A stretch of 64,000 bases of DNA from Glutamicibacter halophytocola (GTDB taxonomy: Bacteria; Actinomycetota; Actinomycetes; Actinomycetales; Micrococcaceae), in NCBI RefSeq assembly GCF_001302565.1, contig NZ_CP012750.1, forward strand, positions 3,720,001 through 3,784,000, written 5' to 3'. Shown in pieces: positions 27,543 to 60,192 of the stretch (positions are counted from its first letter, which is position 1; every line of letters begins with the position of its first letter). A model generated the notes under the pieces. That model was not told the origin of the DNA, ran no database searches, and saw only the letters and a list, made by a program, of their open reading frames with translations. Position numbers and translations under genes: made by a program.

Positions 27543-28610
27543 CTAGGCAACTTCAAGTGGCTCGGCCTTGCCGTCAAGGAGATCCTGAAGTGCCGGAATT
27601 TTCACGCTTTGCCCCTTGTGCAAAGACAACTGCGCCGCATCGGCGACCAGCGCCGCTGTCACTGCCTCAAATGGCGTGCAGGGGTTCTCCCGCTCGCCCA
27701 GAATCAATTCAACAAATCCCGCAAGCTCGTCTACATAGGCTTCATGGAAACGCTGCGCGAAAGTCTCGTGCGGGGTACCACCAGGGAATTCTATTCCGGC
27801 TTCCGCGGACCGGAAAGCAGACCGCTCATCAAGTCCGACCACTGCGGTAGCCAGCGATCCATGGACATCCAGTCGAACATCATGGCCTGAGCCGTTATAC
27901 CGGGTTCCCGTTACCGATGCCAGAGTGCCGTCCTCAAGCTTCAACATGGCGCACGAGGTATCAACATCACCGGCCTTCCCAATTTCCTCGTCACCCTTAT
28001 TTGATCCCCACGAGCACACTTCGACGATCCTCTTGCCCGTGAGCCATTGAATGATGTCAAAATCATGGACGGACACGTCCCGGAAGATTCCACCCGATGT
28101 TCTGATGTAATCAACGGACGGCGGAAACGCATCACCAGTTACCGCCCGCAAGGAATGCAACCAACCCAGCTCCCCGGCGGCGAAACGGCTCTTAGCTTCC
28201 GCATACCCCGCATCAAATCGACGCTGGTGGCCAACCTGGACTATTGCCCCTGCAGCACGGATCTCTTCGAGCAGAGGAAGCGCGTCGGAGACACTGCTGG
28301 AGACCGGCTTCTCGCAGAACATCGGTACGCCATACTTGAAGCCCAAACGGAGAAGCTCAGGGTGAGAGGCGGTATTGGAAGTAATGACAAAGCCATCCAA
28401 CCCCGATTCCAAGAGGTCTGCCACGGATTCGCGCGAATCAACGTGAAGCTCCGCAGCAACCCGCCGCGCTACCTCAGCGTTGGCGTCTGCGAGGAGTATC
28501 TGAATTTCAACGCCGCGTTGCGCCATTTTCTCCTTGACCGTCACTAGATTCTTCGCGTGCATTTGACCGATTCGCCCAGCTCCAACCAGACCAAGTTTTA
28601 ATGTTTTCAA
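27543..28610 (-). CDS. Gfo/Idh/MocA oxidoreductase, inositol 2-dehydrogenase-like
   Basis: 355 residues. NAD-binding LVGAGRIGQMHAKN at the N-terminus, the conserved EKP (FCEKPVSSS), and SGGIFRDVSVHDFDI, where the catalytic Asp and His of inositol dehydrogenases lie. QVGHQRRFDAGY matches the substrate-site Arg segment. It probably oxidises a cyclitol or sugar hydroxyl. It starts at TTG, with GGGAG seven bases upstream. It lies on the far left of the unusual hydroxyquinol/cyclitol region, and a GGACA-N3-TGTCC site is about 200 bases upstream. Confidence 0.85.
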   Translation of the reverse strand: MKTLKLGLVGAGRIGQMHAKNLVTVKEKMAQRGVEIQILLADANAEVARRVAAELHVDSRESVADLLESGLDGFVITSNTASHPELLRLGFKYGVPMFCEKPVSSSVSDALPLLEEIRAAGAIVQVGHQRRFDAGYAEAKSRFAAGELGWLHSLRAVTGDAFPPSVDYIRTSGGIFRDVSVHDFDIIQWLTGKRIVEVCSWGSNKGDEEIGKAGDVDTSCAMLKLEDGTLASVTGTRYNGSGHDVRLDVHGSLATAVVGLDERSAFRSAEAGIEFPGGTPHETFAQRFHEAYVDELAGFVELILGERENPCTPFEAVTAALVADAAQLSLHKGQSVKIPALQDLLDGKAEPLEVA

Positions 28611-28807
28611 CTCTTGACTCCCTTCAGGAATTCTCAGAAATAGTCGCTTTCATCGTTGAAAGCTGAGTGGTTCTACCCTTTGGCCTCTGCTGTCCACCCG
28701 TGAGAATTGATAACCTGCGGGCAGCGGGCACGCGGCCGGTCACCCCAATTCGGGGCCATGTCGCTATAGCATTCAACCGACTTCTTCGTTAATGGATATT
28801 GCCCATC

Positions 28808-28820
28808 GGACACCTTGTCC
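28808..28820. promoter_or_regulatory. GGACA-N3-TGTCC palindrome, site 1
   Basis: GGACACCTTGTCC has perfect 5-base arms. It is placed to control the minus-strand Gfo/Idh gene, about 200 bases from its start. One of four related sites limited to 28.8-36.3 kb; probably the operator of the tandem IclR regulator. Confidence 0.65.
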
Positions 28821-29025
28821 AGTTTCACATGAAGAGTTCAAGTCCCGCAAGGGTCGCAACCCCACTTTCATGGATTGATCGCGACTGCACTCGCACAGGT
28901 CACCATGGAAGTGAGTCCAACCCGCTCACCGCGGACGATCGCAGCCACAAGATCCTCCGCCCGAGCACCCCTCAGTGGAACGTTGTAATCTAGAGCACAT
29001 TTGCTATTATTAGTGTCAGTAAATT

Positions 29026-29038
29026 GAACAGGGTGTCC
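29026..29038. promoter_or_regulatory. GGACA-N3-TGTCC palindrome, site 2
   Basis: GAACAGGGTGTCC, one mismatch from the perfect arms. It lies about 15 bases after a TATTAT -10 element, so near or just after the expected transcription start of the MFS gene. That position suits repression. Confidence 0.65.
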
Positions 29039-29234
29039 AGCTAGTGAGAATTATGGCTGTTGATCAGTTTTCCGCACAGCACGACATCTCCCGCACTTCT
29101 CAGGAGTTGCCCTGTCCGTTTCAAGGTTGACCTTCATTGGCCATGCCGATGGCAAAGGAGCCATCAGGTCGAGGAGATTCGCCGATGCACCGCAACGGCG
29201 AATCAAATTTTGTGCAGTTCACAGAGGAGTTCCA

Positions 29235-30734
29235 ATGTCCAAACATCATCACGTCACAAGCCAAACAGCGCTACCGCCACTCAAATCTGGTCCCCATGAC
29301 AAGCGTCTAGGGCTCATTTCCCTGGTGGCTTGCTTTGGAGGATTGCTCTTCGGATACGACACCGGTGTCGCCAATGGTGCCGAGGGGCCCATGGCTGAAG
29401 AGCTGGGACTGAATCTCATTCAGATCGGTGTTGTCATCAGTTCACTGGTATTCGCAGCAGCTGTCGGAGCCCTCGTAGGCGGGCAGATATCCGACGCATG
29501 GGGTCGGCGCAAGAGCATACTACTGTTAGCCGTTCTGTTCTTTTTTGGCACCATGCTCGTGGTCTTCTCACCTGGTGGAGCCGAGCACGGCACGTTCTCC
29601 CCCGCTGGCTTTGCGATACTTGTGGCAGGACGCATCATGCTTGGACTTGCAGTTGGAGGCGCCTCCACCGTCGTCCCTGTCTACCTGGCAGAACTTGCTC
29701 CGTATGAAATCCGCGGTTCCATAACCGGGCGAAACGAGTTGGCCATTGTGAGTGGGCAACTAGCTGCCTTCGTAGTCAATGCGATTATTGCCAGCACTCT
29801 AGGTGGAACCGTCGACGGCATCTGGCGCATCATGTTTGCGGTCTGCGCCTTGCCAGCCCTGGCTTTGTTCCTCGGAATGCTCCGCATGCCAGAATCCCCG
29901 CGCTGGCTGGTTGAAAAGCGGCGTTACGCAGAAGCCCTGAAAGTCCTTAAGACTGTTCGTTCTTCAGATCGCGCACTCGCCGAGATCAATGACGTCGAAC
30001 GCATCGCCGACGAAGAACGCGGTCAAGGGCACACTGGTCTGCGTGCCTTGTTGTCCAACAAGTGGCTCATCCGCATCGTTCTGGTGGGGATCGGCGTAGC
30101 AATGGCCCAGCAACTTACCGGCATCAACTCGATCATGTACTACGGCACACGAGTTCTTGAAGAGTCCGGAATGACCGCTCAGCAAGCCGTCTTGGCAAAT
30201 ATCGCCTTCGGCGTTGTGGCCGTCATCGGCGGAGTATTCGCACTGCGCAACATGGACCGCATTGACCGGCGGACCACATTCACCATCGGCCTGTCGTTGA
30301 CCACCGTGTGCCATATTCTGATTGCGCTCGCTGGAATGTTCCTCCCAGAAGGCACCGCTCTTCGCCCGATAATCATCATGGTTCTAGTCGTCGCTTTCGT
30401 GCTGTCCATGCAATCATTCTTGAATGTAGCGGTCTGGGTGTGGCTGGCAGAAATATTCCCGCTCCACATGCGCGGACTAGGCATCGGAATCTCGGTATTC
30501 TTCGGCTGGGGCACAAATGGTGTTCTTACTTTGCTGTTCCCGTCGCTGGTATCAGGTATTGGCATCACCAGCTCATTCTTCATTTTCGCGGGCATCGGGG
30601 TCCTGGCTCTGATCTTCGTGATCACGCAGGTGCCCGAAACTCGCGGCCGTTCGCTGGAGTCCTTGGAAGAGGATGTCTCCACAGGAGCTATTTACGCCGT
30701 GCGCGCCAACGACAGCGTTCCGGCAGCGGAATAG
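29235..30734 (+). CDS. MFS sugar/cyclitol transporter (sugar porter family)
   Basis: 499 residues with 12 membrane segments and the full set of sugar porter signatures: FGYDTGVANGAEGP in TM1, ISDAWGRRKS, GLAVGGASTVVPVYLAELAPYEIRG split across TM4-5, MPESPRWLVEK, QQLTGINSIMYYGTRVL and PETRGRSLESLEE. The closest known type is the IolT/XylE-like H+ symporter group. I chose the ATG at 29235, with GAGGAG upstream. It is strikingly similar to the MFS protein at 57362-58858. Cyclitol uptake is inferred from the neighbouring dehydrogenases. Confidence 0.88.
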   Translation: MSKHHHVTSQTALPPLKSGPHDKRLGLISLVACFGGLLFGYDTGVANGAEGPMAEELGLNLIQIGVVISSLVFAAAVGALVGGQISDAWGRRKSILLLAVLFFFGTMLVVFSPGGAEHGTFSPAGFAILVAGRIMLGLAVGGASTVVPVYLAELAPYEIRGSITGRNELAIVSGQLAAFVVNAIIASTLGGTVDGIWRIMFAVCALPALALFLGMLRMPESPRWLVEKRRYAEALKVLKTVRSSDRALAEINDVERIADEERGQGHTGLRALLSNKWLIRIVLVGIGVAMAQQLTGINSIMYYGTRVLEESGMTAQQAVLANIAFGVVAVIGGVFALRNMDRIDRRTTFTIGLSLTTVCHILIALAGMFLPEGTALRPIIIMVLVVAFVLSMQSFLNVAVWVWLAEIFPLHMRGLGIGISVFFGWGTNGVLTLLFPSLVSGIGITSSFFIFAGIGVLALIFVITQVPETRGRSLESLEEDVSTGAIYAVRANDSVPAAE

Positions 30735-30777
30735 ATAAGGCGTCCATCCCCCGCGTACATTCTAAATATCCTTTCAA

Positions 30778-30817
30778 CTAGTGCTGGCTCTGGTCTCGAA
30801 CACCGGGCCAGCATTAG
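30778..30817 (+). terminator. Possible terminator of the MFS gene
   Basis: CTAGTGCTGGC and GCCAGCATTAG pair at 10 of 11 positions around an 18-base loop, 43 bases after the MFS stop. There is no T-run, so confidence is modest. Confidence 0.45.
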
Positions 30818-31050
30818 TCATGTTGATCAAGAGTCGCTTCGGGCACCCGAAGCATGCTGAAGCCAGCTTCTCGACTCCTAGGGCAGGCGCAAGGGGACCG
30901 AGTGCTCCCAGCCAAATATCCGTTCGTCGCGAGCGGCAAAGTCCACTCGGAAAAGAATTGAAAGCCGTCGCCACAACCGGGACAGCCACACTTTTCCTGG
31001 CCTGAGGATCCCTAAGGACCTTGGCTGCAATATTTCCCTGTTCAAGAACA

Positions 31051-31101
31051 AAGCCCAAGAGCATGGTTCCGATGTAGTTTCGGAACCATGCTCTTGGGCT
31101 T
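31051..31101. terminator. Strong bidirectional stem-loop before the dioxygenase 3' end
   Basis: Two perfectly complementary 22-base arms (31051-31072 and 31080-31101) around a seven-base loop, 65 bases after the dioxygenase stop on the minus strand. The AAGCCCAAGAG/CTCTTGGGCTT ends give short A/T runs on both sides. Confidence 0.75.
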
Positions 31102-31166
31102 TCAGGCGCCGGACCCGGTGATCGTCGGGTCCAAGCTACTCACCTAAATGGCAATTCGTTCGGTCT

Positions 31167-32066
31167 TTATCCGCCCTCTGGCGGAAGCACGATATCAAAT
31201 TGGGCCCGTGCCCAGCTACCTTCATCAAGCACTCGGCCATCTGGTGTCGGCGTACCGAGTGGCTGCTGCACAAAGTCCTTGATCAGGGACTGCTTAACCC
31301 CGAACACGGAATCTTGGGTCAGCAACTCATCGCCAGTAACAAAAATGTGGGTCACTAATGTCCGGTGACCAGCTGACGAGACCATGAAGTGCAAATGACT
31401 AGCGCGCATTGGCGAGCGCCCGGCATTCTCCAGCAAGCGCCCAACCGGACCGTCATGGGGGATCGGATATGGAGTTGGAGTCAGCCCCCAGAAACTGTAA
31501 GCGCCATTTTCGTCGCTGTACAGATGCGCACGCCCGTATACTCGCCCATCGCTGTGTTGCACGTCGTAGAAGCCTTCTTCATCAGCCTCCCAGACTTCGA
31601 TGCGTGCCCCGGGAAGGGGATTGCCCTCAGTGTCTTTCACAGTACCTTCAACCCAGCATGGCTGTCCGGGAGCTCCGCCGGAGATATCTCCGCCGTTCTC
31701 GATCCGAGGGGCATCGTCAACAAAGAACGGGCCAAATACGGTCGCTTCCGTAGCGTTGTCGTGCACTTCGTTATTGACGTTGATGGTCTGCATCGAAGCA
31801 CCGAAAACGTCTGAAAGCAGAATGAATTCCTGGCGCTTATCATCGGTGATATGGCCTGCTGCGGTCAGGAACTCGATCGCCGCGTTCCATTCGGGTTCAG
31901 TCAACCGCACGTCTCGGATGAAGGCATGGAGATGCTTGGTCAAGGACTGCATCAACTCTTTGAGTCGAGGATCCGTACAGTTGTCGAATGAGTCAACGAC
32001 CGTCTGGATCAGCTGTTCTTCAACTGCAGCTTGCTCGTTGGCTACATTATGGTTTTGCTTGGTCAT
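31167..32066 (-). CDS. Hydroxyquinol 1,2-dioxygenase (intradiol)
   Basis: 299 residues. Opens the ring of hydroxyquinol (1,2,4-trihydroxybenzene) between adjacent hydroxyls to give maleylacetate, using Fe(III). The N-terminal helical linker domain ([26 protein letters not shown]) precedes the intradiol barrel. The iron ligands lie in GFYDVQ and [16 protein letters not shown] (Tyr residues) and RASHLHFMV (two His). The sequence is of the hydroxyquinol/chlorocatechol type rather than protocatechuate. AGGAACGAAG precedes the ATG at 32066; an ATG at 32081 is less likely. It is the third gene of an operon with maleylacetate reductase, which fixes the pathway. Catechol as an additional substrate is possible. 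Confidence 0.88.
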
Positions 32067-32101
32067 CTTCGTTCCTAACAAATAGTTTGTCTGCGCAATA
32101 C

Positions 32102-33040
32102 CTATATTCGGGAGGCCTCATCAAGAAGCTGCACTTCGCCTTCATCGAGAACCAGGTTCATCGTGCTGAGCAAAGGCGATAACTGGTCAAGGTTGCGTGC
32201 ACTGGCAATCGGCGCTGTCACGTCGTTTTTGCCGCGAATCCATGCCACAGCGATGGCAGCTGGCTGCACCTGACGACGCTTGGCGATCTCGTCCAGAACG
32301 GCCAGCACTGAAAGCCCTCTGGCATCCATATATTGCGATGCGTCAGACGTTCTTGCACCCTGGGGAAGATTCCCTGGCCGGTATTTTCCGGAAAGGAAAC
32401 CGTGAGCCAAGGAATAGTAAGGGTATACATCAAGTCCGTGTTTGGACGCTAGCGGAAGAATGTCGGTTTCAACTGCGCGTTCCATCAGGTTGTATTGGGG
32501 CTCGATGGCGATTGGCACGTGGTACCCCGCGCTTTTGGCTATGCTGATCCATTCTTCAATCCGCTGGGACGAATAATTGGACACCCCAATCGACCTGATT
32601 TTTCCTTGATCCACTAATTCCGACATAGCCTGGACGCTTTGTTCCAAAGGGACAGAAGGATCATCAAAGTGCGCGTAGTAGAGGTCGATGCATTCGGTTC
32701 CTAGCCGGCGAAGCGATTCCTCGACGGCGACTCGAATATTCTCCGGGGACATGCCGGAGAATTCCGGATGATGGCTGACCTTAGTCGCGACGATCAATTG
32801 GTCTCTATCGCTGCGGCCCGAGAGCCACGAGCCAATGATGCGTTCAGACTCCCCACCAGCGTTCCCTTCCGCCCAGAAGGAATACGAATCCGCAGTATCA
32901 ATGAAGTTGCCCCCACCATCTACATACGAAGACAAGATTTCGTGCGACGCTTCCTGGCCAGCAGTCCAGCCGAAAACATTGGTGCCGAGAACCAGTCGAC
33001 AAGCTTCAGCTCCGCTGGCTGTAGTAGCAGTTGCGGTCAT
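32102..33040 (-). CDS. Aldo/keto reductase within the hydroxyquinol operon
   Basis: 312 residues. Catalytic tetrad Asp48 and Tyr53 (FIDTADSYS), Lys87 (VATKVSHH) and His124 (YYAHFDD); C-terminal cofactor segment [10 protein letters not shown]. It lies 55 bases after maleylacetate reductase and 35 bases before the dioxygenase on the same strand. That is unusual for a hydroxyquinol operon, where a monooxygenase or hydroxylase would be expected. It may reduce or dehydrogenate a keto-cyclitol or keto-sugar intermediate, which is inference. It is not closely similar to the reductase at 26421. Confidence 0.87.
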
Positions 33041-33095
33041 GCGCTTACCCCACTTCTTGTGCGTGTTTCTAAATCGGAGAACGGAGAATTGCTGG

Positions 33096-34196
33096 TCAAA
33101 GTCCGGGGTTGGCTTGTGGCTGGCTACCTCGCCAAGCGTCGCTAAGCAATCCCTGAATAGATTCCAGGTCTATGGCGCGTGGATTCCCATAGGAGTACCC
33201 GACAACCTCTTCAGCAATCCGCTGAATGTCGCTCTCTTCCATGCCCAGCTCGGATAGGGAACGAGGGGCGCCCAGCCTTTCTGCGAGGTTCCACAGTTCA
33301 AGTGCCGGATCGTCTGCTCCGCCCAATGCCCGCGACAAGGCTGCCTTGGCGCCGGGTGCAGCAACCTGGTTGAACGCCAAAGCGTAGGGAAGGACCACGG
33401 TGTGCGTCTGAGCGTGCGGAAGGTTAAGCGTTCCTCCTAGCGCATGGCACAGTTTGTGATGCAACGACATCGTGGTGGCACCCAGCGTAGCGCCGCAAAG
33501 CCAGGATCCGTACAAGGCTTGCGCCCGGTTTTCCAGGTTGCTTGGATCATCCACAATCAGTGGCAATGCTTGCGTTAGAGCCTTTACGCCTTCTTCAGCC
33601 ATCAATGAAATGATCGGAGTGGCATCCGGAGCGTACAGCGCTTCAACCGCATGTGCGATGGCGTTGATTGCGCTCGTCACGGACATTCCCACCGGCAAGG
33701 TGGCCGTCAAGGACGGATCATACACAACACTCGTTGGCAGCACTCGAGGGTCTTTGCCAGTTTGCTTGCGGCCGTTGCTGGTCAGCCCCCAGACCGGAGT
33801 CATCTCGGAACCTGCGTAAGTTGTCGGAACGGCGATAATCGGCAGGCTGTGCTTAAGCGCAATAGCCTTGCCCAGTCCTATGGCAGAACCTCCCCCGACG
33901 GTTACGCAACCGTCAGCGCCGAGTTCAGTAGCCTTCTGGCTGGCAGAAAGCGCAGCTTCTTCCGGAACATGCATCACTGCTTCCGGGAGGATTCCGGCGG
34001 CTCGATCGCCTAGCGCGTCGGCCACCATCTGCCCCGTTGCCTGCTGCTCTGGCGAACAGATTACCAGCACGCGCTTTAAGCCCAACGCGTCCAGCTCTGC
34101 GGGAAGCTCCTGCAAGGATCCGACACCGAACTTAACTCTCATCGGCAAAGCCTGGTAGCTAAATTCAAGACCCTGCTCCGTGTTCAGATTAGTCAT
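33096..34196 (-). CDS. Maleylacetate reductase
   Basis: 366 residues of the iron-type alcohol dehydrogenase superfamily, maleylacetate reductase branch. Reduces maleylacetate to 3-oxoadipate with NAD(P)H. The nucleotide motif GGGSAIGLGK is at 101-110, followed by PTTYAGSEMTPVWG; His-rich segments AIAHAVEALY and SLHHKLCHALGG lie in the catalytic domain. It is the first gene of the operon with the aldo/keto reductase and the hydroxyquinol dioxygenase. It is divergent from the tandem IclR gene, with a GGACA-N3-TGTTC site between. The 3-oxoadipate CoA-transferase and thiolase genes must be elsewhere. Confidence 0.92.
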   Translation of the reverse strand: MTNLNTEQGLEFSYQALPMRVKFGVGSLQELPAELDALGLKRVLVICSPEQQATGQMVADALGDRAAGILPEAVMHVPEEAALSASQKATELGADGCVTVGGGSAIGLGKAIALKHSLPIIAVPTTYAGSEMTPVWGLTSNGRKQTGKDPRVLPTSVVYDPSLTATLPVGMSVTSAINAIAHAVEALYAPDATPIISLMAEEGVKALTQALPLIVDDPSNLENRAQALYGSWLCGATLGATTMSLHHKLCHALGGTLNLPHAQTHTVVLPYALAFNQVAAPGAKAALSRALGGADDPALELWNLAERLGAPRSLSELGMEESDIQRIAEEVVGYSYGNPRAIDLESIQGLLSDAWRGSQPQANPGL

Positions 34197-34611
34197 CTGC
34201 TTAGTCCTCTTTGTCGTGTTTAACGTACCGCCGCGCCCGCCCTCTGCGCCGGGCTTGGCGGATTTTCCTATAGTTCGGGGAGGTTTCCCAGATATTTGGT
34301 TGGCTTGCTCTCATCCTCGCGATCGAGATTGCTCCGTCGCATTCAGCTCCCGTTAGGTGACAGCCATTGCGATTTGATTCCTGAAGTCATCAGCTGCCTC
34401 TGGTTGAATCTCATTCATTGCAATACTCTTATAGAATGGACAAGGTGTTCAAAAACTATCATAGGTCGGCACTTACCGCGAGCGATATTTCGTTTTCTTG
34501 GTTCCACCTCCCCCAACCAGGCAATAATCCACGGCAGAATAAATTAACTGCCCAAGACGCTGACAAGGCGGACTGGAGCCACACCGCTTTCCCGATCGAA
34601 GGAGCCACCAG
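34197..34611. other. Divergent control region, maleylacetate reductase / tandem IclR regulator
   Basis: 415 bases, A+T-rich relative to neighbours, with no gene. It contains a promoter-like TTGAAT at 34404, 17 bases, TCTTAT at 34427, directed at the regulator gene, with operator site 3 directly after it. The regulator ATG is preceded by AAGGAG about ten bases upstream. Confidence 0.6.
34437..34451. promoter_or_regulatory. GGACA-N3-TGTCC palindrome, site 3
   Basis: TGGACAAGGTGTTCA, one mismatch from perfect symmetry. It starts about five bases after the proposed -10 of the regulator promoter, so it covers the start point. It is also in reach of the opposite promoter for the hydroxyquinol operon. 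Confidence 0.7.
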
Positions 34612-36183
34612 ATGAGTAGTGAACGGACGAAAAAGGTCTCTCCGATTCAGCTGGTTCTGAAAGCAGGCCTGCTTGTCGATGAGCTCTCCGCTCTTGGCCC
34701 TTCCACGCCAGCTGATCTAGCTAAGGCCACCGATGAACCAAGACCCTCGGTCTACCGCATACTTTCCACGCTTGAAAAGTCTGGCCTCGTTAGACGGAGC
34801 GAGAACTCGCTTGTCGAACTCGGAACTGGAATTCTAAGGCTTGGCGAAGCGGCAAGCGACGCGCTGATCGACAGAAACACGCTCACTACAGTTCTCGAAG
34901 ACATGCAATCGAGACTGGGCTTGACCTCAGCGTTTTGGATCTATCGAAACAACACCGCTGTCTGCTTGGATCAGGTCGACGCTACCGACGTGGATCTGCA
35001 TGCGCTTTCCTCCGGCAGAATCCTTCCCTTGCACGCAGGCGCCGCCTCGCATGTGATCCTGGCTTTCAGCACGCCGGAAATACTGGATTCCCTCATCAAG
35101 AGCGCGCCGTTCCCCGCCCTTGCGCCTCACACGCCCACAGGAGCCAAAGATCTTGTGAAGCTGGTCGAGAAGACACGAAATGACGGATGGCGCTTGGAAG
35201 TCAATGAAGTCGTCAATGGCATCGCCGCCATAGGCTTCCCCGTATTCAACCCTGATGGAACCTTGTTTGGAGCCCTCACCGTAGCCGGACTAGTTGATCA
35301 CGTCAGGGCCACTGAGCAAGAAGTCCGAAAGGCAATGGAAGCGGCAGCCATGGAGCTGGGCGAGGCGCGCCAGGACTTCTCCCCTGCACCCACGGGCGCC
35401 GTATTCGATGCCCCGGATTCTCAGGGATCGGTGCTAGCCAAGGCAGGCACGTTGATCAGCGCCTTGGCGTCAGAGCGAGTGGCCACATCGAGCAGGCTGA
35501 CAGAGTTGATCAATGAGCCAGCGAGCTCGGTTTACCGAATGCTCGGAACGCTGCAGGATATTGGCTGGATCGAACAACTCGCCAATCGAGGCGCTTTCCG
35601 GATTGGCAGCAAAATGATCTCGCTGGCCGGCAATATGCTCAATTCCCTAGACGTGCGAAGGGCCTCCTTGCCGATTCTTCGCTCGATTCACGATGCCACG
35701 GGAGAGACTGTATTCCTGTGCGTACGGCGCAATTCCCGAGCCGTGTGCATTGAGCGCATCGAAGGAAAGCGGGTCAATAGTCGCCTGCTCTCACTAGGAA
35801 GTTCTCTGCCGCTCCATGTCGGCGCTGCGCCACGGGCATTGCTTGCGTTTGAAGAACGCCCCGCGTGGGAAGACTACGCGGCACTCCTATCACAGAGCCC
35901 CGACGAACGCTTCAGCGCGCGCTCGAAGAGCAAACTCCTAGCTGAACTCCAGGACATCCGCGATGCAGGATATGTGGTGAGCGACGACGAGCTTACCCCG
36001 GGCATCGCCGCCGTTGGCGCCCCCATCTACGATCACCGCAACCACGTGGTTGCATCACTATCGATCAGCGGCTTGCGCGAGGGGATCCTCGCCTCGCCGA
36101 GCGAGGATTCCAGCGCCGCACAACTAGTGATCCAGGGTGCGCGGGAGCTCTCCAGCCGCCTGGGCGCGCGCCTCGAATGCTAG
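34612..36183 (+). CDS. Tandem double IclR-family regulator
   Basis: 523 residues made of two complete IclR proteins in one chain. The first has a helix-turn-helix at about 25-60 (LADLAKATDE-type segment STPADLAKATDEPRPSVYRI) and an effector domain to about 255. The second has its own helix-turn-helix at about 285-325 (SSRLTELINEPASSVYRML) and an effector domain to the end. Most IclR proteins are near 250 residues and bind DNA as dimers or tetramers, so one chain could act as a built-in dimer. The two halves are clearly diverged. It sits between the hydroxyquinol operon and the cyclitol operon and is probably their shared regulator. AAGGAG lies about ten bases before the ATG. Confidence 0.9.
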   Translation: MSSERTKKVSPIQLVLKAGLLVDELSALGPSTPADLAKATDEPRPSVYRILSTLEKSGLVRRSENSLVELGTGILRLGEAASDALIDRNTLTTVLEDMQSRLGLTSAFWIYRNNTAVCLDQVDATDVDLHALSSGRILPLHAGAASHVILAFSTPEILDSLIKSAPFPALAPHTPTGAKDLVKLVEKTRNDGWRLEVNEVVNGIAAIGFPVFNPDGTLFGALTVAGLVDHVRATEQEVRKAMEAAAMELGEARQDFSPAPTGAVFDAPDSQGSVLAKAGTLISALASERVATSSRLTELINEPASSVYRMLGTLQDIGWIEQLANRGAFRIGSKMISLAGNMLNSLDVRRASLPILRSIHDATGETVFLCVRRNSRAVCIERIEGKRVNSRLLSLGSSLPLHVGAAPRALLAFEERPAWEDYAALLSQSPDERFSARSKSKLLAELQDIRDAGYVVSDDELTPGIAAVGAPIYDHRNHVVASLSISGLREGILASPSEDSSAAQLVIQGARELSSRLGARLEC

Positions 36184-36229
36184 GCCAGCTTCCTCGGTAG
36201 CGCGGAACTCTTGATTCCCAGCAAGGCAC

Positions 36230-36275
36230 TTGACCGGACTAGTGTGACGTGAAATACTTTGGACAGGTTGTCCAA
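36230..36275 (+). promoter_or_regulatory. Promoter with GGACA-N3-TGTCC palindrome, site 4
   Basis: TTGACC at 36230, 17 bases, AATACT at 36253 form a plausible promoter. Directly after it, TTGGACAGGTTGTCCAA (36259-36275) is the longest and most symmetric of the four sites. It precedes the three-gene operon beginning at 36384 by about 110 bases. An operator right behind the -10 again suggests repression. Confidence 0.65.
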
Positions 36276-36383
36276 TGTATGAAAATTACAGTCGACATTT
36301 CACCACCGCATTTCGGCAAGAGAACTTGCCACCACCGGTCGCATCGAGACCGTCCCACGCAACAAATCTATGGGAGACAGCAC

Positions 36384-37478
36384 ATGGAAAAAATTGTCGT
36401 TGGCTTGCTGGGTATCACCCATCCGCACGCTTCAGCCAGAGTGCGCGCGCTGCGCGCCATTGAGGGAGTGGAAGTGGTTGCAGCCGCTGACACCGACCCG
36501 CGCTTGACGTACTTCACCGACAAGTATGACGTTGCCCCTTGCAGTGTTGATGAGTTGCTCAACGATGAGCGCATTAACGCAGTCATGGTGCATTCGAAGA
36601 GCAAGGACATGCTGGCACATGCCAAACGTGCCATTGCGGCAGGGAAATCGGTTGTCGTAGAAAAACCCGGAGGTGGAACCGTCGAGGATCTCGAACAGCT
36701 CCTCCAGGCCGAAGCCGCTGCTGGTGCTAATCAGGTCATCCAGGTAGGGTACAACGTTCGCCTTGCCCCGAGCATCGAACGAGCAAAACAGCTCCTCGCG
36801 CAGGGAACGATCGGTGAAGTGGTCACCGTAGCAGCACGTGGTTCGGCCATGGTCGGCGAACACCTCACCGAACATCTCAAGCAACCAGCTGACATGGGCG
36901 GCGTACTGTGGATCCTGGGATGCCACATGCTCGACTCGCTGGTCAGCATCTTCGGCACGCCCCAGTCCGTTAATGCACGCGTCCACAAATCTCCCCGGCT
37001 CTCCGACGAGAGCAGCCGTGAAGATTCAGCCTCGGCTTTGCTGAACTACGAGGACCTATCAATTACCTTCAGCTTCGACGGGCACGACTCTCTGGAGTGG
37101 TTCGAAAGCTCAAGAATATTTGTTTACGGCACCAAGGGCATGCTTGAGATCGGCGTTCTGCCTCAAACCCTGAGAGTGCACGTTGACCAGGCTCGTGACG
37201 GATTCATGCCAGGTTGGAATGAATGGATTGAATCTCGTTTCACTCCACCCTTCGCTCGAACTGAATCGAACAAGTTCTCCGAACTGCCCGAACTTGAAAA
37301 CATCTCAAATTTCCACACCGAAATGCAGGGATGGGTCGATTCAATCCGCAATGGAGCTCCGATCCTTGCCCCGGTCCAGGATGCCCTAGACGTCGCCCGA
37401 ATCGTTGCAGCTTGCTACGAATCAAGCAAGAATCAAGGGGCTTGCGCAGCCTTGTCCGTTGTCGATTACAGCAAATAG
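36384..37478 (+). CDS. Gfo/Idh/MocA oxidoreductase, atypical nucleotide loop
   Basis: 364 residues. The family is clear from VVVEKPGGGTVEDLEQLL, the Rossmann fold and the C-terminal beta-sheet domain with the WILGCHMLDSLVSIFG segment. However, the usual GxGxxG loop is replaced by GLLGITHPHASARV, which suggests a different cofactor fit or an unusual subgroup. I chose the ATG at 36384 with GGGAGA upstream; the frame extends to a GTG at 36249 that would overlap operator site 4. It is the first gene of an operon with a TIM-barrel isomerase (11 bases apart) and an inositol dehydrogenase. The substrate is unknown. Confidence 0.82.
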   Translation: MEKIVVGLLGITHPHASARVRALRAIEGVEVVAAADTDPRLTYFTDKYDVAPCSVDELLNDERINAVMVHSKSKDMLAHAKRAIAAGKSVVVEKPGGGTVEDLEQLLQAEAAAGANQVIQVGYNVRLAPSIERAKQLLAQGTIGEVVTVAARGSAMVGEHLTEHLKQPADMGGVLWILGCHMLDSLVSIFGTPQSVNARVHKSPRLSDESSREDSASALLNYEDLSITFSFDGHDSLEWFESSRIFVYGTKGMLEIGVLPQTLRVHVDQARDGFMPGWNEWIESRFTPPFARTESNKFSELPELENISNFHTEMQGWVDSIRNGAPILAPVQDALDVARIVAACYESSKNQGACAALSVVDYSK

Positions 37479-37488
37479 GAATGAACAG

Positions 37489-38382
37489 ATGACAACACAT
37501 CGCACTACCCCTGAGCTGATCGCCACCTGCTGGCTTAGTGCAGGTGATGCCGCGCCATTGCGCCCCAGCGAAGCCAGTCCCATCGAGATCGCTGAGCGCA
37601 TTAGCGCGGTAGCCGATAGCGGCTTCGCGGGAATCGGCCTGGTTCACGCAGATCTCGTCATTGCCAAGGAAACACTTGGCTATCAAGCACTGGGCGAAAT
37701 GATCCGCTCAGCCGGTTTGAAACATATCGAAGTGGAGTTTCTCAACGATTGGTGGGCTACAGGCCAACAGCGTCGGGTCTCCGATCAGATCCGTGCAGAC
37801 CTGTTTGAAGCTGCTGTCGCCCTCAAGGCACGCCACATCAAGGTCGGCGCGGGCAATGCCGATCATCCGCTGCCGATCCAGTTGCTCTCCGATGCTTTCG
37901 GTGAACTGGCAGACGACGCAGCCATGCACGGAATCCAGCTGGCACTTGAAGCCACCCCGTTCTCCAATCTTCGAACAACCGAGGAGGCAATCAAAGTCGT
38001 CATGGCCAGCGGCAGCCCCTCCGCCGGCCTCATGATCGATATTTGGCACACCGCAAAATCCGGGCTCTCCCATGAGGAACTCTGGCGGATGCTGCCTCTG
38101 GAACGGGTCGCGGCGGTAGAAATCGACGATGGGTATTTCCAGACCCTAGGCACCGTTTTTGAAGATACGATCAATCGCCGGACCTACTGCGGCGAAGGCG
38201 AGTTCAATACGGCAGAATTCATAGCCCGTGCCATCGAGGCCGGCTACCAGGGACCGTGGGGTGTTGAAGTCATTTCCGAAGTGCACCGCAATACTCCGGT
38301 ACGCGAAGGCCTTCAGCACGCCTTCGACACGGCCATAGCAAGTTTTCCGCATTCACTGGCAACATCTTCCCGAAAGGCCTAA
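37489..38382 (+). CDS. TIM-barrel sugar isomerase/epimerase-like protein
   Basis: 297 residues of the xylose isomerase-like TIM-barrel superfamily. Metal-ligand segments are visible: KHIEVEFLNDWW, IQLALEATPF, GLMIDIWHT and AAVEIDDGYF, with the late GVEVISEVHR. Members include inosose dehydratase (IolE), IolH, keto-sugar epimerases and C-glycoside deglycosidase subunits. Flanked by two Gfo/Idh dehydrogenases in one operon, it most likely acts on a keto-cyclitol or 3-keto-glycoside made by them (epimerisation, dehydration or beta-elimination). The ATG at 37489 has AGGAATGAACAG upstream. Confidence 0.8.
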   Translation: MTTHRTTPELIATCWLSAGDAAPLRPSEASPIEIAERISAVADSGFAGIGLVHADLVIAKETLGYQALGEMIRSAGLKHIEVEFLNDWWATGQQRRVSDQIRADLFEAAVALKARHIKVGAGNADHPLPIQLLSDAFGELADDAAMHGIQLALEATPFSNLRTTEEAIKVVMASGSPSAGLMIDIWHTAKSGLSHEELWRMLPLERVAAVEIDDGYFQTLGTVFEDTINRRTYCGEGEFNTAEFIARAIEAGYQGPWGVEVISEVHRNTPVREGLQHAFDTAIASFPHSLATSSRKA

Positions 38383-38387
38383 CTATC

Positions 38388-39401
38388 ATGGCGACTCGCC
38401 CCCTGCGCCTTGCGCTCTTCGGCTCCGGCCGCATCGGCCAAGTCCACGCTCGCAACCTGGCCGCAGATCCATCCGTCAATCTGGTCATGATCGCCGACCC
38501 CTTCATCGACGGCGCTGCAGCACTTGCCTCGGCCACTGGCTCGCGGGCCGTTCAAGACCCTGATGAAGTATTCGCCGATGCGTCTCTGGATGGCGTCATC
38601 ATCGGTTCGCCAACCAACACCCACGTTGAATTGATGACCAGGGCAGTCAAGCAGGGTCTCGCCGTGCTGTGCGAAAAGCCCATCGATCTGGACCTGTCTA
38701 CAGTTCTGGCTTGCCGCGACCACATCAAGGACTCGACGAGTCCAATCATGCTGGGTTTCAACCGCCGTTTCGACCCGGGGTTCGCGGCCGTTAATGCGCG
38801 CGTGGCTTCCGGAGAGATCGGCAAATTGGAACAACTCACCATCATCAGCCGGGATCCGGCTCCGGCACCCCGCGGTTATCTGGAGACTTCCGGTGGAATC
38901 TTCCGCGACATGACCATTCACGATCTGGACATGGCCCGGTTCTTCGTCCCCGATATTGTCGAAGTGACCGCCGTGGGCGCAAACCAATTCAGTGATGATA
39001 TTCGAGAGCTCGGGGATTACGATTCTGCGGTCCTTACGCTTCGAGGCCGCGGCGGAGAACTGATCTCCATCACGAACTCGCGGCACTGCTCCTATGGCTA
39101 CGATCAACGGTTGGAAGCCTTCGGTGCACAAGGCATGCTGGAAGCGCGAAATCTGACACCTACTGCAGTCAGAAAACACGCGGCTTCCGGAACAGAGCTG
39201 AAAGATCCCATCTATAACTTCTTCCTGGAACGCTACGCTGATGCATACCGTTTGGAGCTGCAGGCATTCACCGCAGCCATCCGTGGAGAATCGTCTCCTA
39301 CGCCCGATTTTGCCGATGGGCTCGCCGCCTTGGTGCTGGCTAATGCCGCAGTAGAATCTGCCGCTACGGGCAAGACCGTAAAGATCGATCAGATCTGGTG
39401 A
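38388..39401 (+). CDS. iolG: Inositol 2-dehydrogenase-like oxidoreductase
   Basis: 337 residues, close to the IolG group of the Gfo/Idh/MocA family. LFGSGRIGQVHARN binds NAD; LCEKPIDLDLS carries the catalytic Lys; GFNRRFDPGF and SGGIFRDMTIHDLDMARF carry substrate-site Arg, Asp and His. Normally oxidises myo-inositol to scyllo-inosose, but relatives oxidise other inositols, glucose or glycosides. Last gene of the three-gene operon, five bases after the isomerase, and followed by a terminator. iolB, iolC and iolD are not here. Confidence 0.82.
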   Translation: MATRPLRLALFGSGRIGQVHARNLAADPSVNLVMIADPFIDGAAALASATGSRAVQDPDEVFADASLDGVIIGSPTNTHVELMTRAVKQGLAVLCEKPIDLDLSTVLACRDHIKDSTSPIMLGFNRRFDPGFAAVNARVASGEIGKLEQLTIISRDPAPAPRGYLETSGGIFRDMTIHDLDMARFFVPDIVEVTAVGANQFSDDIRELGDYDSAVLTLRGRGGELISITNSRHCSYGYDQRLEAFGAQGMLEARNLTPTAVRKHAASGTELKDPIYNFFLERYADAYRLELQAFTAAIRGESSPTPDFADGLAALVLANAAVESAATGKTVKIDQIW

Positions 39402-42342: not shown

Positions 42343-44109
42343 ATGAGACTGACGAACGTCGCACAGTTACGGTTGCCCTTTGGAAAGTTGCACGGATACG
42401 ACGTCGCTGTCCAGCGCACCGGAGTTGAGCTGCCGATTTCCTTTGACCAGCGGCGTCATGTCTCGCTTGGCCAGCGCCCGGGATCATGGATGGCCATCAG
42501 CTTCCGATTGCCTGCCAAGGTGGCGCTGGATGAGCTAGCCGCCGCGTGGCTGGAAGTCGTCAACCGCCATGGAACCTTGTGCTCTGCCTTCAGCCAGGAT
42601 GAGCAGGGCGAGCTGCGTCTTGAAGAGATCAACGTGTCGCCCGGGGCGTGGACACAGCACCCGGTAGCCAGCGGGCAGTCGATGAACGATGCGCTTCGGG
42701 ACGTTTTTGACCAGGCTTGCTCGCCGTTTAATGCTCCGTCCCATCGGTTGTGCCTGCTGGAGACCGCGTTGGAGTCGACGGTCGTCATCGCCTCGGACCA
42801 TTCGCATGTGGACATGTGGTCGATGCTGGTCATCGTGCGCGACCTGCTGCGGGCATTGGGGCTCTCCGATGATGATGTGGTGCCACAGCCACTGGCCGCA
42901 GCAAGCTTCACCGAGCACACCCGGGCCTTGGCCGAGCGCGAACGCGCCCCTCGCGAGGTCCACCAGCGGTGGGCAGAGGTGCTGGATGCCAGTGGTTCGG
43001 TCATGCCCCGCTTCCCGCTGCCGCTAGGCGAACCAGTGCCCCACGCAGAACGGGTAGAGGTCCGCGATGTTTTGGACGTGGATGACAGCGCCGCCTTTGC
43101 AGCCCAGGCCAAAGAGGATTCTGTCTCCACGCTGACCGCTGTCATCTCTGCGATGACCTCGGTGACCTTGGACCTCGCCCAGGCCCCGCTGCGGGCAGTC
43201 TTCCCCGTGCACAGCCGCTACGATCACCAATGGGATAACTCCGTGGGCTGGTTCATCACCAACGCCGTCATCGAATCTGCAGATCCATCCCCGCTCGCCT
43301 GCGCAGCCGCAGTCAAGGAAGCGGTACGGCTTGGCTCATGGCCATTGGAGGAAATACTCGAACCATGGGGCGGGATGCCCGAGGCGCCGGGCATGTTCGC
43401 CATTTCCTGGTTGGACCTGCGCAGGCTTCCGGTTCGAGTTGATTCCATCGGCCTAGAAGCCCAGTACATTGGCGCCAGCATCCGCACCGACGGGGTGATG
43501 CTGTGGTTCATCCTCGATGACACCGGACTGCACCTGCGGTGCCGCTACCCGGATACTCCCGAAGGCCGTGAGCACGTGGGCGGATGGCTGGATGCGCTGA
43601 TCCTCAAGCTTCGTTCCCAGGCCCGGGCATCGGTGGGCGGATTGCTCCGCCTCGGCGAGCGCAGGTACCGTGTGCAGCGTGCCGAGCGCTCCGATGTACC
43701 ATCCATTGTCGCATTGCTTTCCGATGACGAGTTGGGCGCCGCCCGCGAAGGCGAGGAACTGGTGGCCTACGAACGGGCCTTCGACAAGATCAGCCGCGAC
43801 TGGTCAAACTATCTTGCGGTGGTCCGCGATGAACAAGACACCGTCATCGGAACGATGCAGCTATCGATCATCCCTGGGCTGTCCCGCAAGGGCACCACGC
43901 GCTTGCAGATCGAAGGCGTGCGCGTAGCTGCCAGCGAAAGGTCCCACGGCGTCGGCCGGGCGATGCTCGAATGGGCTCATGCGCATGGCCGGGCCCGCGG
44001 GGCGCGGCTTGCACAGCTGACTACCGATTCATCGAGGCTCAAAGCCCATGCGTTCTATGCGCGCCTGGGCTACGAGCAGAGCCATGTGGGACTCAAGCTG
44101 CTGCTCTGA
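42343..44109 (+). CDS. Stand-alone condensation domain fused to a GNAT acetyltransferase
   Basis: 588 residues, two domains. Residues about 1-415 form a condensation domain: VVNRHGTLCSAF, the active-site HxxxD (His153-Asp157 in SDHSHVDMWS) and SVGWFITNAV match known core motifs. Residues about 425-588 form a GNAT acyltransferase with EGVRVAASERSHGVGRAML, whose RSHGVG is the acyl-CoA loop. No adenylation or carrier domain and no peptide synthetase lies nearby, so the first half may act on an acyl-CoA or a carrier protein from elsewhere, as PapA-type enzymes do. It could acylate an alcohol or amine in a two-step manner; the product is unknown. Confidence 0.82.
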   Translation: MRLTNVAQLRLPFGKLHGYDVAVQRTGVELPISFDQRRHVSLGQRPGSWMAISFRLPAKVALDELAAAWLEVVNRHGTLCSAFSQDEQGELRLEEINVSPGAWTQHPVASGQSMNDALRDVFDQACSPFNAPSHRLCLLETALESTVVIASDHSHVDMWSMLVIVRDLLRALGLSDDDVVPQPLAAASFTEHTRALAERERAPREVHQRWAEVLDASGSVMPRFPLPLGEPVPHAERVEVRDVLDVDDSAAFAAQAKEDSVSTLTAVISAMTSVTLDLAQAPLRAVFPVHSRYDHQWDNSVGWFITNAVIESADPSPLACAAAVKEAVRLGSWPLEEILEPWGGMPEAPGMFAISWLDLRRLPVRVDSIGLEAQYIGASIRTDGVMLWFILDDTGLHLRCRYPDTPEGREHVGGWLDALILKLRSQARASVGGLLRLGERRYRVQRAERSDVPSIVALLSDDELGAAREGEELVAYERAFDKISRDWSNYLAVVRDEQDTVIGTMQLSIIPGLSRKGTTRLQIEGVRVAASERSHGVGRAMLEWAHAHGRARGARLAQLTTDSSRLKAHAFYARLGYEQSHVGLKLLL

Positions 44110-60164: not shown

Positions 60165-60192
60165 CTGCCAACTACTTCGTACGGATCCCAAA

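Follow-up and report, generated by a model that had tools for sequence, protein, structure and literature searches.

A gene cluster of Glutamicibacter halophytocola (contig NZ_CP012750.1) is best read as a catabolic regulon that would convert a cyclitol into hydroxyquinol without the use of an oxygenase, and then cleave the aromatic ring; the probability of this reading is estimated at about 0.65. The cluster occupies positions 27543–39401 of the 64,000-nucleotide stretch of DNA analysed (the window), and every gene named in the original prediction is found there as an open frame (Table 1). The reading is built on gene identities, on their conservation and on a palindrome common to the parts of the cluster, all of which were observed. 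The substrate would be a cyclitol, probably a deoxy-inositol (quercitol).

Gene content and common operator-like palindrome

Table 1. Genes and operator-like sites of the cluster (positions in the window)
Feature	Position	Strand	Basis
Gfo_A, second inositol-dehydrogenase-like Gfo protein	27543..28610	-	TIGR04380 265 bits, cut-off 355
Operator-like palindrome, one mismatch, ahead of Gfo_A	28807..28821	.	
Operator-like palindrome ahead of the MFS gene	29025..29039	.	exact, - strand
Sugar porter MFS, likely ATG 29235	29127..30734	+	TIGR00879 327.5 bits, cut-off 237.8
HQD, hydroxyquinol 1,2-dioxygenase, likely ATG 32066	31167..32081	-	Dioxygenase_N/C; PDB 1TMX
Aldo/keto reductase, between HQD and MAR	32102..33040	-	Aldo_ket_red
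MAR, maleylacetate reductase	33096..34196	-	PDB 3w5s, 3hl0, 3jzd
Operator-like palindrome TGGACAAGGTGTTCA, between divergent operons	34437..34451	.	exact match
Fused double-IclR regulator (IhtR-like), 523 aa	34612..36183	+	two IclR_C, two HTH_IclR
Operator-like palindrome TGGACAGGTTGTCCA, ahead of dehydrogenase operon	36260..36274	.	exact, both strands
OxiC-like Gfo/Idh/MocA protein (Gfo_B)	36384..37478	+	modified motif (see text)
TIM-barrel protein (AP_endonuc_2), proposed cyclitol-ketone dehydratase	37489..38382	+	profile vs PDB
Inositol 2-dehydrogenase, IolG/OxiD type	38388..39401	+	TIGR04380 374.4 bits; 3EUW 484.6 bits

HQD and MAR were predicted to define the lower hydroxyquinol pathway, and the sequence comparisons support both identities. 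HQD best matches the hydroxyquinol 1,2-dioxygenase of the PDB (465 bits, against no more than 116 bits for catechol dioxygenases), placing the enzyme firmly within the hydroxyquinol group as far as sequence can tell. Its Tyr, Tyr, His and His positions, presumably the iron ligands, are kept in all covering rows of a 27-row alignment (two to three rows being gapped). No close HQD paralogue was found in the genome, in which the two other matches score 32 and 20 bits. MAR scores 327 bits against each of the solved enzymes named maleylacetate reductase (3w5s and 3hl0), and 420 (3jzd) and 292 bits against solved enzymes named alcohol dehydrogenase. The aldo/keto reductase and sugar porter that had been claimed are both present; the former was found in 11 of the 14 full relatives described below, and is therefore considered accessory.

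Three Gfo/Idh/MocA dehydrogenases had also been predicted; three such proteins are indeed encoded, but three active dehydrogenases are not supported. IolG scores above the inositol 2-dehydrogenase equivalog cut-off and has the C. glutamicum OxiD structure as its best match, whereas Gfo_A and Gfo_B (79 bits) both fall below this cut-off. In Gfo_B, an LGITHPHAS-type motif replaces GxGxxG and Ile replaces the catalytic Asp in 10 of 10 sequences, the His of the catalytic pair being retained, and the idea that all three are active was rejected on this basis. The same Ile and an incomplete GxGxxG are reported for C. glutamicum OxiC in the available text of PMC9603128. In one relative (L004), a Gfo_A homologue adjoins a TIM-barrel paralogue downstream of an exact operator.

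The palindrome TGGACA-N3-TGTYCA stands ahead of both operons, that of the dioxygenase and that of the dehydrogenase, and of the transporter gene, and three of its five exact copies in the genome lie inside the cluster. The site between the divergent operons is conserved across nine aligned intergenic regions and has the top matrix score in the window, and the site ahead of the dehydrogenase operon is at the equivalent place in nine relatives (eight exact, one with two mismatches). A lack of co-expression between the operons, named beforehand as a point that would tell against the idea, is made unlikely by the presence of the same predicted operator ahead of both operons and the transporter. 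A larger regulon defined by the exact operator was rejected, since one of the two copies outside the cluster falls inside a DUF4031 ORF, while the other is some 120 bases ahead of secA and overlaps an AlkZ-like ORF at its end. One-mismatch sites are numerous (94 matches genome-wide over the two strands; the reversed pattern gives 24) and could hide further members.

The tandem IclR regulators that had been predicted are two IclR units fused into a single protein, which is 44% identical to a 494-aa IclR protein of C. glutamicum. In that species, binding of the regulator IhtR and its release by 1,2,4-trihydroxybenzene have been published; IhtR responds to 0.05 mM of this compound and hardly to 5 mM inositol. 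Walter et al. described transcription of the operon with resorcinol, and levels of rhcM2 RNA with added inositol and resorcinol comparable to those with indole (available text of PMC7764795 and PMC9603128).

The TIM-barrel protein and conservation of the cluster

The TIM-barrel protein had been taken to be IolE-like, but its nearest characterised kin proved to be QuiC 3-dehydroshikimate dehydratase and IolI. Profile searches of the PDB gave 3e-33 for Lmo2234, 2e-26 for QuiC1, 7e-19 for IolI and just 3e-5 for IolE, and the IolE model was not matched at E 0.001; identity with IolE was dropped. The presumed metal ligands E, D and E are conserved in 47 of 47 sequences, and a fourth, E258, is seen in an 18-row alignment only. 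We infer the reaction from kinship because the match to the QuiC model, which covers only positions 14–252 of 635, reaches 56.7 bits, far below the equivalog cut-off of 1200; the protein may nevertheless work like a QuiC-type dehydratase.

The distant relatives of this protein in actinobacteria (38–44% identity) lie mostly close to IolD. At 16 actinobacterial loci, IolD is encoded within 10 kb in 13 cases and HQD in none, and IolD exceeds its equivalog cut-off in all four of the loci scanned. A second TIM-barrel protein co-occurs in 7 of the 16; its label, IolE-like, is unproven, with no NCBIfam match at 1e-60. IolD is absent from the 10 close loci, including the cluster itself (27.0–41.5 kb). 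In a tree of the TIM-barrel proteins, linkage to HQD requires five changes, at least three of them on well-supported branches.

The core (HQD-MAR, divergent from double IclR-OxiC-like-TIM-IolG, accompanied by either a sugar porter or an ABC transporter of the sugar type) recurs in 14 distinct relatives. The relatives were collected through the TIM-barrel protein or Gfo_B, belong mostly to one family and are not independent. The gene order is retained in these relatives, and the association therefore exceeds chance. In a class-wide sample of 394 genomes, a match was found in one genome besides this one (43% identity). Four loci (L081, L082, L087 and L089) have SDR or MDR enzymes and no IolG match, and in another (L080) the cluster is missing although an OxiC-like gene is present.

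The association extends to plasmids. From the 50 plasmid records with the TIM-barrel protein, 15 were selected so as to represent diverse organisms; in 10 of these stretches the distance from HQD to the TIM-barrel gene is within 7 kb (from Rhizobium, Agrobacterium, Aureimonas and others), with MAR also present in eight, and in five HQD is not nearby. In six further records HQD is 2.6–2.8 kb away by match positions. For comparison, HQD-group genes occur on 312 of 72,556 records. A search of plasmids for the OxiC-like protein at E 1e-60 gave zero matches; an OxiC-like protein recurs beside the TIM-barrel protein, HQD and MAR in Aureimonas, Azospirillum and Rhizobium.

Proposed route and alternative explanations

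In the proposed route, the sugar-type porter would import a deoxy-inositol (quercitol, C6H12O5), and IolG, perhaps with Gfo_A, would use NAD+ to oxidise the carbinol that adjoins the CH2; the product would be a deoxy-inosose (C6H10O5). The TIM-barrel protein, as a relative of 3-dehydroshikimate dehydratase, would catalyse a β-elimination of water; a second β-elimination, spontaneous or assisted by the OxiC-like protein (a role that, again, we infer), would give aromatic 1,2,4-trihydroxybenzene (C6H6O3). HQD would open the ring to maleylacetate and MAR would convert this to 3-oxoadipate, a product that genes of the pcaI and pcaJ families (both scoring above cut-off) and thiolase genes at other places in the genome could take on. 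The double-IclR repressor would sense hydroxyquinol and govern all parts through the one palindrome. The mass balance originally put forward for quercitol, one oxidation and two dehydrations giving C6H6O3, is right, with a constraint added by our own derivation: only the ketone adjoining the CH2 gives hydroxyquinol, other ketones giving pyrogallol. C. glutamicum OxiD oxidises myo- and D-chiro-inositol (available text of PMC7764795 and PMC9603128); quercitol as an OxiD-type substrate would be an extension from these inositols. The cyclitol-to-hydroxyquinol idea as a whole has withstood the checks made, on the common predicted operator, on the TIM-barrel kin mostly beside IolD and on hydroxylases, and has lost the likeness to IolE and the three active dehydrogenases.

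A hydroxylase co-regulated from elsewhere in the genome had been named as a point that would tell against the idea. The genome has 18 matches to FAD_binding_3; no operator, with one mismatch allowed, lies within 17 kb of the four strongest genes (187–241 bits), and a search of the stretches from 25 relatives with HQD gave no homologue of any of the four at E 1e-5. A hydroxylase of the HpaB type was likewise not found. A linked flavin hydroxylase of the tested families was rejected on these grounds. Two genes of the phenol-2-monooxygenase subfamily are present in the genome and could in principle supply hydroxyquinol. Oxygenases of other families occur in some flanks of the 25 stretches; PhyH (L007), an LLM oxidoreductase (L082) and a P450 (L087) are found near some relatives, and a FAD-binding oxidoreductase near the cluster of L091. 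Some other plasmid HQDs (H79 and H82) overlap an annotated FAD-dependent monooxygenase.

These results bear on the strongest alternative, in which one regulator would serve two pathways, HQD and MAR clearing hydroxyquinol derived from aromatics and the dehydrogenases interconverting inositols for a separate iol pathway. An IolB-family gene and a true IolD lie about 29 kb and 40 kb from the cluster, respectively; in C. glutamicum, iol2 is dispensable on myo-inositol, which raises expression of genes of two clusters (PMC9603128), and the IhtR effector 1,2,4-trihydroxybenzene is also an intermediate of resorcinol breakdown, but a strain in which growth on myo- and D-chiro-inositol had been restored lacked cg3390 (available text of PMC7764795 and PMC9603128). 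This explanation appears unlikely, as it does not account for the recurrence of the OxiC-like protein, the TIM-barrel protein, HQD and MAR in two phyla with differing dehydrogenases, or for the lack of linked homologues of the flavin hydroxylases in relatives.

It is considerably less probable that an inositol is converted to 1,2,3,5-tetrahydroxybenzene, to be cleaved and reduced by the HQD and MAR homologues: OxiD accepts inositols, and inosose derivatives aromatise chemically to this compound by β-elimination (available text of PMC5327690 and PMC11467972), but IhtR responds to 1,2,4-trihydroxybenzene and hardly to inositol, tetrahydroxybenzene not being among the effectors listed in the available text of PMC7764795 and PMC9603128, and HQD belongs with the hydroxyquinol enzymes.

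Oxidative deglycosylation, in which an aryl glycoside would have its sugar oxidised by Gfo proteins and its phenol, hydroxyquinol, eliminated by the TIM-barrel protein, is just as improbable. DgpA-type Gfo proteins and TIM-barrel lyases perform such reactions on C-glycosides, DgpA chains are among the (weak) matches of Gfo_B, and one relative (L038) encodes a ChvE-type sugar-binding protein. However, the equivalog score marks IolG as an inositol dehydrogenase, the TIM-barrel kin lie mostly near IolD, hydroxyquinol glycosides are rare and no glycosidase family was found among the ORFs at 20339–44109, leaving this part of the original prediction unsupported. Intergenic gaps at 34612–39401 are 201 bases at most, and a DgpABC-like small beta subunit would not fit within that stretch.

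Relation to known pathways

The cyclitol-to-hydroxyquinol route would resemble the quinate/shikimate route, in which a hydroaromatic polyol is oxidised and aromatised by a TIM-barrel dehydratase to protocatechuate, which is passed via an intradiol dioxygenase to 3-oxoadipate. To our knowledge, aromatisation in bacterial catabolism is known mainly from quinate and shikimate. The likeness lies in QuiC, the nearest characterised TIM-barrel kin; the proposed product differs (hydroxyquinol, with HQD and MAR downstream), and the TIM-barrel protein is far under the QuiC cut-off. The myo-inositol pathway (IolG-IolE-IolD-IolB-IolC) shares the IolG first step, inositol-type transporters and TIM-barrel kin near IolD, but the cluster has no IolD match, and the ring would be opened with O2 by HQD rather than with water by IolD. 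HQD and MAR are also common to the resorcinol/nitrophenol branch of hydroxyquinol breakdown, whereas no linked flavin hydroxylase was found here.

The locus itself is not new. C. glutamicum iolT2-rhcM2D2/cg3388 (ihtR)/oxiC-cg3390-oxiD-oxiE is described with a matching gene content and a divergent layout (order from the available text of PMC7764795 and PMC9603128). The G. halophytocola cluster differs in the place of the porter, on the far side of HQD, in its additional aldo/keto reductase and Gfo_A, and in having a carbon-nitrogen hydrolase gene, not an OxiE gene, next after IolG. In the available text of these two separate papers, the aromatic and inositol halves are treated apart, and OxiC and Cg3390 are given no function. 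The novelty originally claimed is thus confined to the link between the halves, which appears to be new; no such cyclitol-hydroxyquinol link was found in a search of open-licence PMC articles.

If correct, the cyclitol-to-hydroxyquinol reading would connect the catabolism of sugar alcohols, by way of aromatisation, with the 3-oxoadipate pathway. In the industrial bacterium C. glutamicum it would account for the presence of an inositol transporter gene in one operon with genes for ring cleavage, for the response of the repressor to 1,2,4-trihydroxybenzene, and for the functions of OxiC and Cg3390. The idea can be tested directly with deletion strains and expression plasmids that exist for this species (available text of PMC7764795 and PMC9603128). 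Enzymatic conversion of a cyclitol to hydroxyquinol with no oxygenase would also be of interest to producers of bio-based aromatics. The chances are about even that Actinomycetota and Alphaproteobacteria have a widespread, repeatedly assembled catabolic module that needs only dehydrogenation and dehydration to aromatise deoxy-cyclitols to hydroxyquinol, the Asp-less OxiC-like Gfo protein and the TIM-barrel dehydratase representing new activities. Aureimonas sp. AU20 would then carry the whole route, from the transporter to a 3-oxoadipyl-CoA thiolase, in one gene run.

Gene content and predicted control of the cluster

In Glutamicibacter halophytocola, genes for hydroxyquinol 1,2-dioxygenase (HQD) and maleylacetate reductase (MAR) stand divergently to genes for Gfo/Idh/MocA-family proteins and a TIM-barrel protein (TIM), and their identities are clear. 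HQD scores no more than 116 bits against catechol enzymes, and the curated inositol 2-dehydrogenase cut-off is passed by IolG and failed by Gfo_A and Gfo_B. A general route taking a cyclitol-type compound through hydroxyquinol (1,2,4-trihydroxybenzene) is well supported by this association, with a probability of about 0.65, slightly lowered by the oxygenases flanking other loci and by the separate position of IolD. The G+C content is 0.555–0.579 across 28–40 kb of the window and 0.585–0.646 in the other 4-kb steps, except at 56–60 kb (0.566); the lower G+C of the cluster, together with its patchy spread, suggests gain by transfer. At 42343–44109 of the window, a 588-aa reading frame combines a condensation domain (barely over cut-off) with a downstream GNAT acetyltransferase domain.

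The palindrome TGGACA-N3-TGTYCA is shared by the intergenic regions of the cluster. The whole genome (3.9 Mb) has five exact copies, three of them in the cluster; one of the other two falls within a DUF4031 reading frame, and the second, which overlaps an AlkZ-like reading frame at its end, lies upstream of secA by about 120 bases. In an initial set of nine relatives, eight have an exact site before Gfo_B, the exception being locus L011 with two mismatches; between the operons, six have an exact copy, two have one mismatch and one has two. Both sites have at most one mismatch in five further full relatives. The window was scanned with a matrix built solely from the 18 sites of these nine relatives, with 200 block shuffles as background. 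The four window sites headed the ranking (26.2, 25.4, 20.0 and 17.6; next score 13.4); the best shuffled scores averaged 12.5 and peaked at 21.3, which the first two sites exceeded and the last two did not.

Features of the cluster and its predicted operators (window coordinates; the window spans G000:C1:3720001-3784000)
Feature	Position	Strand	Remarks
Gfo_A, another Gfo protein	28610-27543	-	far side of HQD
Predicted operator, one mismatch	28807		before Gfo_A
Predicted operator, exact	29025		before sugar porter
Sugar-porter MFS	29127-30734	+	far side of HQD
HQD	32081-31167	-	matches solved hydroxyquinol 1,2-dioxygenase, 465 bits
Aldo/keto reductase	33040-32102	-	between MAR and HQD
MAR	34196-33096	-	matches two solved maleylacetate reductases, 327 bits
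Predicted operator, exact	34437		between divergent operons
Fused double-IclR regulator	34612-36183	+	divergent from MAR/HQD operon
Predicted operator, exact	36260		before Gfo_B-TIM-IolG
Gfo_B, OxiC-like Gfo protein	36384-37478	+
TIM-barrel protein	37489-38382	+
IolG, inositol 2-dehydrogenase	38388-39401	+	over curated inositol 2-dehydrogenase cut-off

Conservation and variation among relatives

A scan of named genomes with TIM gave 18 loci, in eight of which TIM is 60–74% identical (Arthrobacter, Sinomonas, three Paeniglutamicibacter, two Rhodococcus and Mycobacterium aquaticum); all eight keep HQD, MAR, the double IclR, Gfo_B, TIM and IolG in the same divergent order. Within the family, Gfo_B was found in 14 of 395 sampled genomes, G. 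halophytocola included, and in none of the 17 other genomes of the genus in that sample. The 13 other genomes comprise 11 with the full set (genome G390 and loci L038 and L071–L079), one variant (L081) and one with Gfo_B alone, adjoining an IS110-family transposase gene (L080). Five of the 13 were taken as repeats of named-genome loci (G390 = L006, L071 = L004, L074 = L010, L077 = L007, L078 = L008), leaving, besides L080 and L081, 14 distinct full relatives (L004–L011, L038, L072, L073, L075, L076 and L079), some of them close to one another. The aldo/keto reductase is kept in 11 of these 14, and all have a transporter, either a homologue of the sugar porter or an ABC system, such as that of L004 (BPD_transp_2, double ABC_tran and Peripla_BP_4) or that of L038, with a binding protein over the ChvE cut-off (462.6 vs 460). 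In L074, L075, L077, L078 and L079, the gene beside HQD is homologous to the IolB-family gene of G. halophytocola. At 14386–16866 of L004, and likewise in L071 and L072, a Gfo_A homologue and a 65% identical paralogue of TIM have their own exact operator (at 16928 in L004) and may provide a second entry for substrate. Another TIM–dioxygenase pairing is seen at 282–1770 of L006, where a 30% identical TIM precedes a reading frame with a catechol-dioxygenase N-terminal domain.

TIM was also found on 50 plasmid records, from which 15 stretches of about 19 kb were fetched (L082–L096). HQD is present in ten (Agrobacterium, two Sinorhizobium, Shinella, three Rhizobium, R. opacus, Aureimonas and Azospirillum), of which eight have MAR, not found in L085 and L087; HQD-group genes occur on 312 of 72,556 plasmid records. 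By score, HQD belongs to the hydroxyquinol group in both L082 (330 bits) and L087 (333 bits), catechol enzymes giving ≤130. Five stretches (L087, L089, L091, L092 and L093) have an annotated sugar ABC transporter, and IolD is found in one of the 15 (Curtobacterium). In Aureimonas, one strand carries a sugar ABC transporter, TIM, iolG, Gfo, Dabb, MAR, the dioxygenase, CoA-transferase A and B, and pcaF. Neither HQD nor IolD was found in the four remaining stretches, two each from Sphingobium and Halobaculum: the Sphingobium TIM relative (L083, L084) lies near acyl-CoA dehydrogenase and enoyl-CoA hydratase genes and maybe serves a different alicyclic acid route, and that of the halophilic archaeon Halobaculum (L086, L096) lies beside 2-oxo acid dehydrogenase genes.

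In all ten close sequences, Gfo_B has LGITHPHAS (VGITHPHAS in L005) in place of GxGxxG and Ile in place of the catalytic Asp. Gfo proteins of Aureimonas, Azospirillum and Rhizobium SRDI969 (36–37% identical) have the same signature, with Val or Ile at the Asp position, so that the OxiC-like protein accompanies TIM, HQD and MAR in two phyla. IolD and TIM likewise have a Gfo_B homologue (43–45%) nearby in Nocardioides (L018) and in genome G023. In the variant L081, a single strand encodes a ribose-type ABC transporter, an SDR, HQD, MAR, an MDR enzyme, TIM, a regulator and Gfo_B, whose gene is interrupted by an internal stop. Its HQD belongs to another subgroup (42% identical to the window's; 272 bits for the hydroxyquinol type vs ≤134 for catechol enzymes), and the best curated match of the MDR enzyme, scyllo-inosose 3-dehydrogenase, is below cut-off (149 vs 450). 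SDRs hold the corresponding place in Agrobacterium, Shinella, Rhizobium and R. opacus. The polyol dehydrogenase varies while TIM and HQD, usually with MAR, stay, as a polyol-to-hydroxyquinol pathway predicts, the presence of TIM or Gfo_B being no evidence in itself in loci found through them.

The best curated match of TIM is QuiC (56.7 bits, far under the cut-off of 1200). A profile of 18 relatives finds Lmo2234 (3e-33), QuiC1 (2e-26), IolI (7e-19), weaker isomerases and epimerases, IolE (3e-5) and AsbF (1e-3), and all 47 sequences compared retain E, D and E as the presumed ligands of the metal. Of the actinobacterial loci with TIM at 38–44% identity, 13 of 16 have IolD within 10 kb, none has HQD, and three (L054, L055 and L057) have neither; IolD was over the curated cut-off in all four actinobacterial TIM loci scanned for it. 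On a 47-row TIM tree (26 rows with HQD, 14 with IolD, seven with neither), HQD linkage takes five changes, at least three forced by well-supported branches, against a shuffled mean of 15.8, near copies lowering such numbers. The TIM–HQD pairing has therefore arisen or been lost several times.

Possible sources of hydroxyquinol

Hydroxyquinol could in principle be supplied by a hydroxylase instead. The genome has 18 FAD_binding_3 matches, 16 over cut-off. Among the four strongest, one belongs to the 4-hydroxybenzoate 3-monooxygenase subfamily and lies with genes for the alpha subunit of protocatechuate 3,4-dioxygenase, for members of the pcaI and pcaJ families (both over cut-off) and for a thiolase that falls short of the pcaF cut-off (448 vs 597); two belong to the phenol 2-monooxygenase subfamily, and the fourth is an FAD-dependent oxidoreductase of a general subfamily. 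No operator, even with one mismatch, was found within 17 kb of these four genes, and neither the window nor the stretches of 25 HQD-bearing relatives contain homologues of them at E 1e-5; a search for HpaB-type hydroxylases was negative. Some flanks do have oxygenases of other families. A PhyH-type dioxygenase gene follows IolG in Paeniglutamicibacter (L007, 13530–14735) and has homologues in three further loci; L082 has an LLM-class oxidoreductase at 6 kb from TIM, L087 a cytochrome P450 at about 8 kb, and L091 an FAD-binding oxidoreductase at 1.5 kb on the opposite strand. In these partly annotated flanks, none of them is a recurrent member of the set in the way that TIM and HQD are.

The cluster has a counterpart in Corynebacterium glutamicum (iolT2-rhcM2D2/ihtR/oxiC-cg3390-oxiD), whose proteins are matched by those of the window, the gene order there being taken from papers. 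Cg3388 (IhtR) is reported to repress rhcM2, binding between its own gene and iolT2-rhcM2D2; binding is relieved by 1,2,4-trihydroxybenzene (>0.05 mM), hydroquinone (>0.5 mM) and indole (>4 mM), with hardly any effect of 5 mM inositol, resorcinol, catechol, 2,4-dihydroxybenzoate or protocatechuate (PMC7764795). A C. glutamicum IclR protein (P0234, 494 aa) gives a match spanning 98% of the window's fused regulator. By this match IhtR looks like a double repressor, whereas one HTH and one effector domain are cited for it (PMC7764795). OxiD (3EUW) is described as an NAD-dependent dehydrogenase of myo- and D-chiro-inositol, OxiC, without Asp179 and a full GxGxxG, as unlikely to be an active inositol dehydrogenase, and cg3390 as a putative sugar phosphate isomerase (PMC9603128). 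In a strain deprived of all seven dehydrogenases and of cg3390, IolG or OxiD alone restored growth on myo- and D-chiro-inositol (PMC9603128); Cg3390 is therefore dispensable for both. The main text of the IhtR paper does not name oxiC, cg3389, cg3391 or cg3392 (PMC7764795), nor does that of the OxiC/OxiD paper mention hydroxyquinol, maleylacetate or quercitol (PMC9603128); a link between the two halves was not found in the open-licence literature searched.

G. halophytocola has IolD (over cut-off, at 3799284) and an IolB-family gene outside the cluster, at distances of about 40 kb and 29 kb respectively, so ordinary inositol use is probably separate. A second cyclitol-type neighbourhood, followed by IolD, occupies 57362–64000 of the window and G000:C1:3776000-3795000 (L036). 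It has a sugar porter, a TIM-like and an IolG-like protein, an ABC transporter with a rhizopine-type binding protein, a levoglucosan-dehydrogenase-like Gfo and an IolB-family gene, the IolG-like, rhizopine-type and levoglucosan-dehydrogenase-like names reflecting scores below curated cut-offs.

Soil bacteria possess vibo-quercitol 1-dehydrogenase, and deoxy-scyllo-inosose has been converted chemically to hydroxyquinol. The mass balance is C6H12O5 - 2 H - 2 H2O = C6H6O3. By our derivation, a ketone beside the CH2 (2-deoxy-scyllo-inosose) would allow β-elimination of the C3 and C5 hydroxyls, leaving oxygens at C1, C2 and C4, as in hydroxyquinol; a ketone at other positions would give pyrogallol. 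Keto-inositol derivatives are reported to aromatise chemically, through enolisation and β-elimination, to 1,2,3,5-tetrahydroxybenzene (PMC5327690), elimination has converted protected myo-inositols to 1,2,4-trihydroxybenzene (PMC11467972), and quercitol is reported in honey (PMC8912080). Quercitol as the true substrate is a tentative proposal, a little short of an even chance. We infer the reactions of TIM, a putative cyclitol-ketone dehydratase, and of the OxiC-like protein, which might help the elimination. Small YciI or Dabb alpha/beta-barrel proteins are encoded near MAR or HQD in alphaproteobacterial clusters (L082, L087, L088 and L091–L095), and could aid the second elimination or tautomerisation.
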